DNA from: Miniimonas arenae
GTDB taxonomy: Bacteria; Actinomycetota; Actinomycetes; Actinomycetales; Beutenbergiaceae
DNA: 64,000 nucleotides
Assembly (NCBI RefSeq): GCF_006351005.1
Contig: NZ_VENP01000002.1
Coordinates: forward strand, 1 to 64,000
Reading direction: 5' to 3'
In this document: piece by piece, positions 57,512 to 61,978 of the stretch
How positions within the stretch are numbered: position 1 is the stretch's first letter
How the letters are laid out: each line of letters starts with the position of its first letter
Position numbers and translations under genes: made by a program
The notes under the pieces: model-generated
Databases searched by the model: none
The model's input: the letters and a program-made list of their open reading frames with translations, nothing else
What the model was told of the DNA's origin: nothing

Positions 57512-58489
57512 TCAGGCCGGGGCGTCCTGTCGCGGCGGCTTGAGGACGCTGACCAGCCCCGCCACCCCGAGGCAGCCCGCGATCACCACGAGGGACACCC
57601 ACGTGGCGATCTCGGGCGCCCACCCGACGGGCTCGCCGTGGTTGATGAACGGCAGCCGGTTGGTGTGCAGCGCCTCGAGCACGAGCTTGACGCCGATGAA
57701 CGCGAGCACCGCGGCGAGCCCGTACTTGAGGTAGGCGAGCCGCTCCATGAGCCCGCCGAGCATGAAGTAGAGCTGGCGCAGACCCATGAGCGCGAAGATG
57801 TTCGTGGTGAACACGATGAACGGGTCGGTCGTGAGCCCGAAGATCGCGGGGATCGAGTCGAGCGCGAACAGCAGGTCCGTCGTGCCGAGCGAGAGGATCA
57901 CGAGCGCCATCGGGGTGAGAAGCTTGCGCCCGTCGATCCGCGTGACCAGCCGGCGGCTGTCGAACTCCGTCGACACCGGCATCACGCGGCGCACGAGCCG
58001 GATCGTGAGGTTCTCCCGGTACTCCTCGACGTCGTCGGCGCGCAGCATGGAGACGGCCGTCACCACGAGGATCGCGCCGAAGAGGTAGAAGACCGCGGTG
58101 AAGCGGTCGATGATCGCGGCGCCGGCGAGGATCAGCGCGGCGCGCAGCACCAGCGCGATGAGGATGCCGATCATGAGCGCGCCCTGCTGCAGCGCGCGTG
58201 GTACCGCGAACGACCCGAGGATGAGCGCGAACACGAAGAGGTTGTCCAGGCTCAGGGAGTACTCCGTGAGCCAGCCCGCGACGAACTCCCCCGCCGGCGC
58301 CGGCCCGCCGACCACCCACACGAGGCCCGCGAACACGAGCGCGAGTCCGACGTACACGCCGACCCAGCGCGCGCTCTCCGTGAAGGTCGGCACGTGCGGG
58401 CGGCGCCCGATCACGGCCAGGTCGACGACGAGGATCGCCAGGATGACGACGAGCGACGTGACCTCGAACCAGCCCGGGAGCTGCGTCAC
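57512..58489 (-). CDS. TerC/Alx family integral membrane protein 2 (probable metal efflux)
   Basis: A 325-residue TerC-family protein with about eight to nine membrane helices and the conserved acidic motifs NLFVFALILGSF and FALDSIPAIFGLTTDPFIVF. Family members are linked to manganese export. GTG 58489 overlaps the stop of the first terC gene (GTGA), so the two paralogs are translated together under the same riboswitch-controlled leader. Its C-terminus is short and lacks the charged tail of paralog 1. Confidence 0.9.
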   Translation of the reverse strand: MTQLPGWFEVTSLVVILAILVVDLAVIGRRPHVPTFTESARWVGVYVGLALVFAGLVWVVGGPAPAGEFVAGWLTEYSLSLDNLFVFALILGSFAVPRALQQGALMIGILIALVLRAALILAGAAIIDRFTAVFYLFGAILVVTAVSMLRADDVEEYRENLTIRLVRRVMPVSTEFDSRRLVTRIDGRKLLTPMALVILSLGTTDLLFALDSIPAIFGLTTDPFIVFTTNIFALMGLRQLYFMLGGLMERLAYLKYGLAAVLAFIGVKLVLEALHTNRLPFINHGEPVGWAPEIATWVSLVVIAGCLGVAGLVSVLKPPRQDAPA

Positions 58490-59538
58490 CGCTCCTCGCC
58501 CGACGCGCCGCCGCCCGACCCGGGCGTCGTGTCCGACCCGGTCGTGCCGGCGCCGGCCGCCTCGAGCGCACGCTCGTCCCGACGGGTCTTCACGAGGCTC
58601 GCGACCGTCGTGATCACGAGGACCGAGACGATGAACGTGAGCGAGAACCCGATGCTCACCTCGGGGATCACGTCGACGTGCTCACCGCCGTTGATGAACG
58701 GCACCTCGTTCTCGTGCAGCGCGTGGATGACGAGCTTGACGCCGATGAACGCGAGGATCGCGGCGAGGCCGTAGTTGAGGTAGACGAGCTTGTCGAGCAG
58801 CCCGTCGATGAGGAAGAACAGCTGGCGCAGACCCAGCAGCGAGAACGCGTTCGCTGCGAAGATCAGGTAGACCTCCTGGGTGAGGCCGAAGATGGCGGGG
58901 ATCGAGTCGATCGCGAACAGGATGTCCGCCGAGCCGATCGCGATCATCACGAGCAGCATCGGCGTGATGTGCCAGCGACCCTCGTGCCGCACCCACACCC
59001 GGTCGCCGTGGAAGCCCTCCGTGACCGGCACCACCCGACGCACGGTCCGGACGAGCCAGGTCTCCCTCTTCTCGTCGGTCTCCTCGGTGTGCCGCAGCTG
59101 CGCGAACGCCGTCCAGATGAGGAAGGCGCCGAACAGGTAGAAGATCGCGGCCCAGTTGTTGACGATCTCGGCGCCGATGAGGATGAAGACGGTGCGCAGC
59201 ACGAGCGCGAGGATGATGCCGACGAACAGCACCTTCTGCTGGTTCTCCCGCGGGACCGCGAACGCGGCCATGATGAGGACGAACACGAAGAGGTTGTCGA
59301 CCGAGAGCGACTTCTCGGTGATGTACCCGGCGTAGTACTCCGCGGCGAAGCCGCTGCCCCACATCCAGAGCACGAAGAGGCCGAAGAGCAGCGCGATCGC
59401 CACGTAGGCGCCGGACCAGATCGCCGCCTCGCGCAGCGTGGGGGCGTGCGGCTTGCGCACGTGCCCGAAGAGGTCGACGGCGAGCATCGCCACGATGCCG
59501 GCGAGCGTGCCGACCCAGATCCAGACGGAGACGTCCAT
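58486..59538 (-). CDS. TerC/Alx family integral membrane protein 1 (probable Mn2+ exporter)
   Basis: A 350-residue membrane protein similar in design to paralog 2: NLFVFVLIMAAFAVPRENQQ, FAIDSIPAIFGLTQEVYLIF and NYGLAAILAFIGVKLVIHAL. Acidic residues in the helices are the likely metal path. The C-terminus has a charged, Gly/Ser-rich tail. ATG 59538 is preceded by GAAGGG with 6 bases spacing; that Shine-Dalgarno can be sequestered by the riboswitch expression platform. Mn2+ export is inferred from family and riboswitch. Confidence 0.92.
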   Translation of the reverse strand: MDVSVWIWVGTLAGIVAMLAVDLFGHVRKPHAPTLREAAIWSGAYVAIALLFGLFVLWMWGSGFAAEYYAGYITEKSLSVDNLFVFVLIMAAFAVPRENQQKVLFVGIILALVLRTVFILIGAEIVNNWAAIFYLFGAFLIWTAFAQLRHTEETDEKRETWLVRTVRRVVPVTEGFHGDRVWVRHEGRWHITPMLLVMIAIGSADILFAIDSIPAIFGLTQEVYLIFAANAFSLLGLRQLFFLIDGLLDKLVYLNYGLAAILAFIGVKLVIHALHENEVPFINGGEHVDVIPEVSIGFSLTFIVSVLVITTVASLVKTRRDERALEAAGAGTTGSDTTPGSGGGASGEER

Positions 59539-59544
59539 GGGGAA

Positions 59545-59575
59545 CCCTTCGGTGCCGTTGCTGAGGGACCGAAGG
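59545..59575 (-). promoter_or_regulatory. Expression platform sequestering the terC Shine-Dalgarno
   Basis: On the minus strand CCTTCGGT (59575-59568), the 3' strand of the aptamer's P1 stem, can instead pair over 8 bases with ACCGAAGG (59553-59546), which contains most of the terC Shine-Dalgarno GAAGGG (59550-59545). The loop is 14 bases. The two pairings are mutually exclusive, so stabilising P1 would free the ribosome-binding site. Confidence 0.8.
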
Positions 59576-59679
59576 TCTTCTCCGGCCACCGGCCACCGGC
59601 CGGGTGCCCGACGACACCGGGAACCCTGCGCCGGGTGCCGTGGTGACGATGCCGTCGATTGAGGAGTACTCCCCTTCGG
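59569..59679 (-). ncRNA. yybP-ykoY manganese riboswitch aptamer
   Basis: The minus strand shows CCGAAGG-GGAGTA-CTCC at the 5' side and GGAG-AAGA-CCTTCGG at the 3' side. These give P1 (CCGAAGG/CCTTCGG), the conserved internal loop GGAGUA/AAGA and P2 (CUCC/GGAG), matching the yybP-ykoY consensus. ATCGTCACCAC in between fits the second conserved loop. It lies 31 bases before a terC gene, the usual regulon of this class. The 193 bases from 59680 to 59872 upstream hold the promoter region; nothing else was recognised there. Confidence 0.9.
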
Positions 59680-59865
59680 GGGCGACTCTAGGTGACGACG
59701 TGCGCTCGTGTCACGAACCGGGCACGCCGGTGGCGCCGGGCGGACTGCTCATGCGGCCCGTGGACGTCGCACGCCCGACGGCGTCGCGCCGGTTCCCCGC
59801 TCGTCCGCGTGACGGACGCCACATCTCAGGCGGTGGTCGACGCTGGCGCCGCGACGGCCCGCGAG

Positions 59866-59882
59866 GACGGCCTCAGGCCGTC
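59866..59882. repeat. Small palindrome with the uvrB stop codon in its loop
   Basis: GACGGCC and GGCCGTC pair around TCA, which is the uvrB stop codon read on the minus strand. It may help terminate or end uvrB translation and transcription; the stem is short. Confidence 0.5.
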
Positions 59883-61978
59883 GCCGCGACCATCTGCCGC
59901 AGCTCCTTCTTGAGGTCGGAGATCTCGTCCCGCAGCCGCGCTGCCACCTCGAACTGCAGCTCGGCGGCCGCGGCGTGCATCTGGTCGGTGAGGTCCTGGA
60001 TGAGCTGCGCGAGGTCGGACGCTGCGGCGCCCGCGAGCCGGTCCCGCGCCGCAGATCCCTTGGCCCCGCCGCCCAGTCCGTGGCCGCCACCCTTCTTGCC
60101 GCCCGCCTGCCGGTAGCCGCCCGCGAGCAGCTCCTTCGTGTCGACGTCCTCCCGGGCGAGCTGGTCGGTGATGTCGATGATGCGCTTGCGCAGCGGCTCG
60201 GGGTCGATGCCGTGCTCGAGGTTGTAGGCGACCTGCTTCTCGCGGCGACGGTTCGTCTCCTCGATCGCCAGCGCCATCGACGGGGTGATCTTGTCGGCGT
60301 ACATGTGCACCTGGCCCGACACGTTGCGCGCCGCGCGCCCGATCGTCTGGATGAGCGAGGTGCCCGAGCGCAGGAACCCCTCCTTGTCCGCGTCGAGGAT
60401 CGCCACGAGCGACACCTCCGGCAGGTCGAGGCCCTCGCGGAGCAGGTTGATGCCGACGAGCACGTCGTGCACTCCGGTGCGCAGCTCGCGGAGCAGCTCG
60501 ATCCGCCGCAGCGTGTCGACCTCGGAGTGCAGGTAGGCCACCTTGACGCCCCGCTCGAGCAGGTAGTCCGTCAGGTCCTCGGCCATCTTCTTGGTGAGCG
60601 TGGTGACGAGCACGCGCTCGTCCTTCTCCGAGCGCTCCCGGATCTCCCCCAGCAGGTCGTCGATCTGGCCCTTGGTGGGCTTGACGACGACCTCGGGGTC
60701 CACGAGGCCGGTGGGCCGGATGACCTGCTCGACCACGCCGTCGGACTGGCCGAGCTCGTAGGCCCCGGGTGTGGCCGAGAGGTAGACGGTCTGGCCGATG
60801 CGCTCGAGGAACTCCTCCCACCGCAGCGGCCGGTTGTCCATCGCGCTCGGCAGCCGGAAACCGTGCTCGACGAGCGTGCGCTTGCGGCTCATGTCACCCT
60901 CGAACATCGCCCCGATCTGCGGCACGGTCTGGTGCGACTCGTCGATGACGAGGAGGAAGTCCTCGGGGAAGTAGTCGAGCAGCGTGTTCGGGGCGGTGCC
61001 GGCCTCGCGTCCGTCGATGTGCCGCGAGTAGTTCTCGATGCCGCTGCACGTCCCGATCTGGCGCATCATCTCGATGTCGTACGTGGTGCGCATCCGCAGG
61101 CGCTGCGCCTCGAGCAGCCGGCCACCCCGCTCGAGCTCGGCCAGCCGTTCCTCGAGCTCGGCCTCGATGCTGCCGATCGCGCGCTCCATGCGCTCCGGCC
61201 CGGCCACGTAGTGGGTCGCCGGGAAGAGGAAGATCTCCGACTCCTGGCGCACGACGTCGCCCGTGAGCGGGTGCAGCGTCGCGAGCGACTCGACCTCGTC
61301 CCCGAACAGCTCGATGCGGATCGCGAGCTCCTCGTAGACCGGGATGATCTCCACGGTGTCCCCGCGCACGCGGAACGTGCCGCGCTGGAACGAGGCGTCG
61401 TTGCGGGTGTACTGCATCGCGACGAAGCGGCGCAGCAGGTCGTCCCGGTCGATCGTGTCCCCGAGGCGCAGCGGCACCATCCGGTCCACGTACTCCTGGG
61501 GGGTGCCGAGGCCGTAGATGCACGAGACCGACGCCACGACGATGACGTCGCGCCGGGTGAGCAGCGAGTTCGTCGCCGAGTGACGCAGCCGCTCGACCTC
61601 CTCGTTGATGGAGGAGTCCTTCTCGATGTACGTGTCCGAGGACGGCACGTACGCCTCGGGCTGGTAGTAGTCGTAGTACGAGACGAAGTACTCGACGGCG
61701 TTGTTCGGCAGGAGCTCACGGAACTCGGTGGCGAGCTGCGCCGCGAGGGTCTTGTTCGGCGCCATCACGAGCGTGGGCCGCTGCACCTGCTCCACCAGCC
61801 ATGCGGTGGTGGCCGACTTGCCCGTTCCGGTGGCGCCGAGCAGCACGATGTCCTTCTCGCCCGCCTTGAGGCGCTGGGTGAGGTCGGCGATCGCGGTCGG
61901 CTGGTCGCCGGACGGCGTGTACTCCGACACCACCTCGAAGGGGGCGACGGTGCGCTGCAGGTCGGTCACCGGTCTCAT
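59873..61978 (-). CDS. uvrB: Excinuclease ABC subunit B
   Basis: A 701-residue DNA-dependent ATPase of nucleotide excision repair. P-loop [10 protein letters not shown] (48-57), the beta-hairpin region [20 protein letters not shown], helicase motifs [10 protein letters not shown] and QTIGRAARN, and a C-terminal UVR motif for UvrC ([18 protein letters not shown]) are present. ATG 61978 gives [10 protein letters not shown]; an upstream start at 62008 adds ten residues without a better ribosome-binding site. It is monocistronic here. Confidence 0.96.

Follow-up and report, generated by a model that had tools for sequence, protein, structure and literature searches.

A probable Mn2+ riboswitch of the yybP-ykoY class before two overlapping terC genes of Miniimonas arenae

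Introduction

In the actinobacterium Miniimonas arenae, the gene terC1 is preceded on the minus strand by a leader that is very probably a yybP-ykoY riboswitch for Mn2+, of the alx-like type without a P2 arm, and acting as a translational ON switch. The leader is well supported as a new member of a known Mn2+ riboswitch class and is ordinary in kind. The class itself is already known, and the newer points are a direct and conserved swap between the aptamer helix P1.1 and the Shine-Dalgarno (SD) sequence, together with a blind spot of the Rfam 15 model. The predicted switch is compact and readable, as a single 8-nt strand pairs either within the aptamer or with the ribosome-binding site, and it is conserved widely enough in Actinobacteria for compensatory-mutation tests. 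The window analyzed is a 64,000-nt stretch of contig NZ_VENP01000002.1 (assembly GCF_006351005.1), and all coordinates refer to it.

Architecture of the leader

The minus-strand leader at 59679-59539 has the yybP-ykoY architecture, consisting of P1.1, the internal loop L1 (GGAGUA/AAGA), P1.2, P3.1 and a 7-nt L3. Read on the minus strand from 59679 to 59538, it runs CCGAAGG GGAGUA CUCC ... AAGA CCUUCGGU ... ACCGAAGGGUUCCCC AUG, and the terC1 ATG lies at 59538. A previous sequence-only reading had placed a yybP-ykoY core before terC, and every element that it named was recovered on the minus strand at the positions that it gave. Its P1 and its GGAGUA/AAGA loop were borne out, whereas the label P2 was wrong and corresponds to P1.2 plus P3.1 in the published nomenclature, in which the leader has no P2 arm. 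L1, as GGGAGUA at 59673-59667, forms an internal loop between P1.1 and P1.2, and the 7-nt L3 above P3.1 holds the adenosine that contacts Mn2+ in the class. The features are as follows.

59685..59714, minus strand: promoter-like site GTGACA-18-TAGAGT (9/12 matches; 0 in 50 shuffles)
59673..59679, minus strand: P1.1 5' strand CCGAAGG (covaries among relatives; helix 1, 94.9% of cells paired)
59667..59672, minus strand: L1 GGAGUA, opposite AAGA at 59579-59576 (invariant in 62 leaders)
59663..59666, minus strand: P1.2 5' strand CUCC, partner GGAG at 59583-59580 (helix 2, 97.2% of cells paired, two-sided changes)
59647..59657, minus strand: P3.1 5' strand CGACGGCAUCG, 11 bp with 59619-59609 (helix 3, two-sided changes in 7/10 pairs)
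59640..59646, minus strand: L3 UCACCAC, including A59644 (the A invariant in 62 leaders)
59620..59639, minus strand: P3.2 hairpin (helix 4, two-sided changes in 7/7 pairs; fold)
59609..59619, minus strand: P3.1 3' strand CGGUGUCGUCG (covariation of helix 3)
59584..59608, minus strand: P4 hairpin (predicted fold; length variable among relatives)
59580..59583, minus strand: P1.2 3' strand GGAG (covariation of helix 2)
59568..59575, minus strand: switch strand CCUUCGGU, P1.1 3' strand when ON or anti-SD strand when OFF (pairing energies, folds)
59546..59553, minus strand: ACCGAAGG with the terC1 SD (AAGG, 7 nt before ATG), partner of the switch strand when OFF (pairing energies, folds)
58486..59538, minus strand: terC1, TerC/Alx family, 350 aa (PF03741, 1.6e-49; TIGR03718 R_switched_Alx, 373.5 bits)
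57512..58489, minus strand: terC2, second TerC/Alx protein, 325 aa (PF03741, 2.8e-46; TIGR03718, 359.8 bits)

Conservation and covariation among relatives

Relatives of TerC1 were gathered from 80 + 30 loci. Nearly all of them have GGGGAGUA before terC and then, in order, CGUCAnnAC, a variable hairpin, GAGACCUCCGG and, immediately ahead of the start codon, the complementary CCGGAGG; this recurrence across Actinobacteria is far beyond chance. In an alignment (A1) of 62 diverse actinobacterial-type terC leaders, including the leader studied here, the motifs GGGAGUA, CGUCA, AC and AGAC are invariant. RNAalifold recovered P1.1, P1.2, P3.1 and P3.2 from these leaders, with two-sided changes in 22 of the 28 pairs, and all four helices are backed by compensatory change. 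Paired cells amount to 90.9%, compared with 72.8% in shuffled and at most 53% in slid alignments, two-sided compensatory cells number 324 against 110 in shuffles, and the covariation score is 0.545 against 0.222 shuffled and at most 0.162 slid, where the shuffle control overstates the significance because the leaders are kin, and the slid control preserves kinship but is biased in favor of a structure that was itself obtained from these leaders. The element is not found at every terC gene: four loci (L031, L036, L050 and L073) have no GGGGAGUA leader in the 400 nt upstream, and therefore control by the element is not universal. The same actinobacterial-type leader is also present before terC in a Thermomicrobiales MAG (Chloroflexota, L027), which may reflect transfer or mis-binning.

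Homology to established Mn2+ riboswitches

A covariance model, R1, was built from A1, and was thus trained on terC leaders only, with E. coli not included. R1 scores 88 bits (E 2.4e-19) on the leader, its sole match in the 3.4-Mb genome, a value that arises partly by construction, as the leader is a training row. Outside the training set, R1 finds the E. coli leaders of alx (50.3 bits, E 1.3e-11) and, in an unfiltered search, of mntP (21.2 bits, E 1.2e-4), which establishes homology to experimentally established members of the class. Among 198 actinobacterial genomes, 49 contain R1 matches, and all 17 genomes listed for the same order and class belong to these; within the same order, 108 of 149 genomes have a match. 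At four loci where a motif scan found no element (L093, L096, L114 and L115), R1 matches lie just upstream of terC in the same genomes, and the misses are probably loci read in the wrong orientation.

The genes on the 3' side of 28 R1 matches in the phylum sample (loci L122-L150 minus L124, which lies at a contig end) encode TerC in 18 cases, P-type cation ATPases in eight, a Na/Ca exchanger in one and an M50 peptidase with a CBS domain in one. The transporters other than TerC provide independent support, because R1 was trained on terC leaders only. The matches before P-type cation ATPases or the Na/Ca exchanger are those at L127, L128, L130, L133, L140, L141, L143, L147 and L149. In Streptococcus, a Mn riboswitch controls a Mn2+/Ca2+ ATPase, according to a report cited in PMC10550928. 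The match before the M50 peptidase (L145, G042:C128:24518-24612; 64.5 bits) stands before an unusual gene for a Mn2+ riboswitch.

The Rfam model RF00080

The sequence-only reading had proposed a search with the Rfam model of the class and had named the lack of a hit beforehand as a refutation. RF00080 (Manganese, Rfam 15) indeed gave no match to the leader, neither at its gathering threshold of 45 bits nor at E values up to 10 in a 301-base search, and it found nothing above noise anywhere in the whole genome. The model itself, however, is insensitive: it gives no match to the E. coli K-12 alx leader (L119:372-504) at E values up to 0.1, and its score of 41.6 bits on the E. coli K-12 mntP leader falls below the threshold. 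The negative result is therefore uninformative and does not refute class membership, since alx, an established Mn2+ riboswitch, also escapes this model; for this reason RF00080 was rejected as the arbiter of the class, and the 45-bit threshold, which neither leader reaches, does not define it. RF00080 describes the same class, with a consensus in which P1 is unpaired and the 3' part is long and unstructured, and it misses the subgroup studied here. In the actinobacterial set, it finds six genomes, one of them over threshold, where R1 finds 49. A large part of a well-known class is hidden by the Rfam 15 model, and annotation pipelines that depend on it will overlook the Mn2+ control of genes for TerC and cation ATPases. 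Matches of mir-3174, RF_site4, Ms_AS-5 and other Rfam families in 59480-59780 were dismissed as chance, being far below their gathering scores.

Comparison with known systems and the predicted metal site

The E. coli alx leader, which responds to Mn2+ and pH, shares with the present leader the series P1.1, L1 GGGGAGUA, P1.2, P3.1, L3 UCAUUAC and P4, the lack of a P2 arm and a TerC/Alx gene downstream. It differs in having about 75 more nt with extra hairpins before the alx start codon. A second difference lies in what comes after the P1.1 3' strand, which in alx is the strand's own complement (GACCUUGCC-GGAA-GGCGAGGUC) and here is a complementary SD. The E. coli mntP leader belongs to the same class, and Mn2+ has been reported to switch on its translation initiation, so that the mechanism proposed here equals the published translational behavior in outcome (PMC9603457); in contrast to the present leader, it has a P2 arm and an L3 of ACAUACU, and the gene under its control encodes MntP, whose family has no member in this genome. 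Among actinobacteria, the terC gene of Corynebacterium glutamicum (cg2157) has a yybP-ykoY leader, scored at 49 bits with an older Rfam model and visible as a 5' UTR in RNA-seq (PMC3890552).

In crystal structures, the contacts to Mn2+ come from phosphates and from the N7 atom of a single adenosine, which is A41 of UCAAUUC in Lactococcus lactis and A48 of ACAUACU in Xanthomonas oryzae (PMC6754395). Like the leader, both aptamers have L1 and a 7-nt L3 that includes the adenosine in contact with Mn2+ (PMC6754395), and they differ from it in having a four-way junction with P2 and in the L3 bases after the adenosine. A59644 aligns with A41 and A48 (positions from PMC6754395), and L3 reads UCACCAC here, mostly UCAUCAC in relatives and UCAUUAC in E. 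coli alx. The published Mn2+ site is matched by L1 with its 3' GA and by the L3 adenosine, all of them invariant in the 62 leaders, whereas the two bases that follow this adenosine in L3, which are CC here, AU in L. lactis and UA in X. oryzae, count against the Mn2+ reading. Variation at these two bases would fit a related aptamer for another signal, either a divalent metal other than Mn2+ or Mn2+ combined with alkaline pH, as would the requirement of E. coli mntP for Mn2+ plus alkaline pH for full activation (PMC9603457). Such a variant is nevertheless rather improbable in view of the invariance of the N7-contacting A, L1 and its 3' GA, the cation transporter genes downstream, and the nearest validated relative, alx, whose gene is annotated as a Mn2+ exporter and whose L3 has the same pattern. 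It is similarly doubtful that the actinobacterial leaders form a distinct subclass, in which the L3 UCANYAC and the P1.1:SD swap would confer a metal preference or threshold unlike that of the known Mn2+ riboswitches and which would be chiefly responsible for regulating TerC and P-type ATPases by metal in these bacteria.

The predicted switch between aptamer and Shine-Dalgarno helices

The strand CCUUCGGU (59575-59568) can pair either with the P1.1 5' strand at 59679-59673 or with ACCGAAGG at 59553-59546, and the predicted aptamer and anti-SD helices are mutually exclusive, as they share this one strand. An alternative pairing of the P1 3' strand with the strand holding the terC SD had already been put forward, and duplex energies and folds support both helices, one of which contains the SD. 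Across the relatives, native pairs of switch strand and SD region have a mean energy of -14.4 kcal/mol against -12.2 kcal/mol for permuted partners (0 of 5000 permutations), and with one row per distinct switch strand the values are -10.3 and -8.8 kcal/mol (2 of 5000). P1.1 strands likewise prefer their own partners over permuted ones. A fixed-register count of switch-strand:SD pairing is weak (mean helix 5.6 against 4.9 permuted, with no signal in positions 6-9) because register and bulges vary, and duplex energies were used for this reason. The pair CCUUCGGU/ACCGAAGG is represented by CCUCCGGU/ACCGGAGG in other genera, a two-sided change. The anti-SD helix is weaker or bulged in some relatives, mainly Microbacteriaceae and some mycobacteria.

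From the promoter-like site, the RNA is predicted to begin at about 59678-59681, on the first bases of P1.1, and TANNNT at -22 to -19 from GGAGUA occurs 47 times in 89 leaders, compared with at most 1-2 per position elsewhere. In predicted folds of aptamer-only RNA (to 59560) starting at 59679-59681, the probability of P1.1 is 0.88-0.93 and that of P1.1, P1.2 and P3.1 is 0.84-0.93. From 59678, P1.1 drops to 0.13, and the exact start therefore matters. When the RNA includes the SD and the start codon, the anti-SD helix is predicted at 0.99 and P1.1 at 0.00, and for the full leader the predicted energies are -69.8 kcal/mol (ON) and -76.4 kcal/mol (OFF). A minimum-energy state with a hidden SD would also be expected of a conserved leader helix without a ligand, for example an RNA thermometer or a constitutive mRNA stabilizer; this is very improbable, since the invariant unpaired L1 and L3 and the homology to alx and mntP are unexpected of a simple thermometer.

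Untranslated G+C-rich mRNA is often a target of Rho, which favors a Mn2+ riboswitch that acts mainly on transcription, with ribosome exclusion in the OFF state leading to Rho-dependent termination or transcript decay. The X. oryzae aptamer, which differs from the present leader in controlling transcription termination, also speaks for such a mode, as it acts by antitermination (PMC6754395). A mainly transcriptional switch is still unlikely here: no intrinsic terminator was found in 59500-59900, and across relatives the partner of the switch strand is the SD, 4-12 nt ahead of the start codon.

Proposed mechanism

In the favored translational mechanism, transcription would start, probably, at the first base of P1.1, and the aptamer, being transcribed first, would fold with P1.1 closed. 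By binding between L1 and L3, with a contact to A59644, Mn2+ would dock the two legs and lock P1.1, so that the switch strand CCUUCGGU would be occupied, the SD free and terC1 translated; terC2 would then probably be translated by coupling through its 4-nt overlap. At low Mn2+, the SD strand would invade and capture the switch strand, giving a more stable helix in which the SD is hidden. Mn2+ would thus decide whether P1.1 outlasts the arrival of the SD strand. In X. oryzae, Mn2+ stabilizes P1.1 and makes its 3' half less accessible to an invading strand, an effect that is lost in A48U (PMC6754395). Exactly such protection would be required in the present leader, where the SD strand would be the invader.

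A translational switch turned on by Mn2+ was also what the sequence-only reading had proposed. It is upheld by the homology, by two exclusive helices of which one contains the SD, by the lack of an intrinsic terminator and by the terC overlap. Mn2+ as the ligand and the affinity for metal are inferred from the family, as are control of translation in vivo, coupling, and Mn2+ transport or metalation by the TerC proteins.

The terC genes and their metal context

Both TerC proteins exceed the curated cut-off of TIGR03718 (246.4 bits), which places the leader before a Mn2+ homeostasis gene of the TerC/Alx family. The GTG start of terC2 lies within the stop of terC1 (GTGA), giving the 4-nt overlap, and in the R1 search of the genome terC2 has no riboswitch-model match of its own. 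No protein of the MntP family was found in this genome and three Nramp proteins are encoded in it, which makes it plausible that the terC pair is the main Mn2+ outlet. In Bacillus subtilis, TerC proteins contribute to Mn efflux, a minor contribution compared with dedicated pumps, and also metalate secreted enzymes (PMC10550928). The two overlapping terC genes had been described as exporters; the overlap holds, and the label is likely a simplification that covers part of their role, because TerC relatives are also Mn2+ metalation factors (PMC10550928). At least 15 further genomes of the order have tandem terC pairs like terC1-terC2, in which the genes range from overlapping to separated by about 180 nt.
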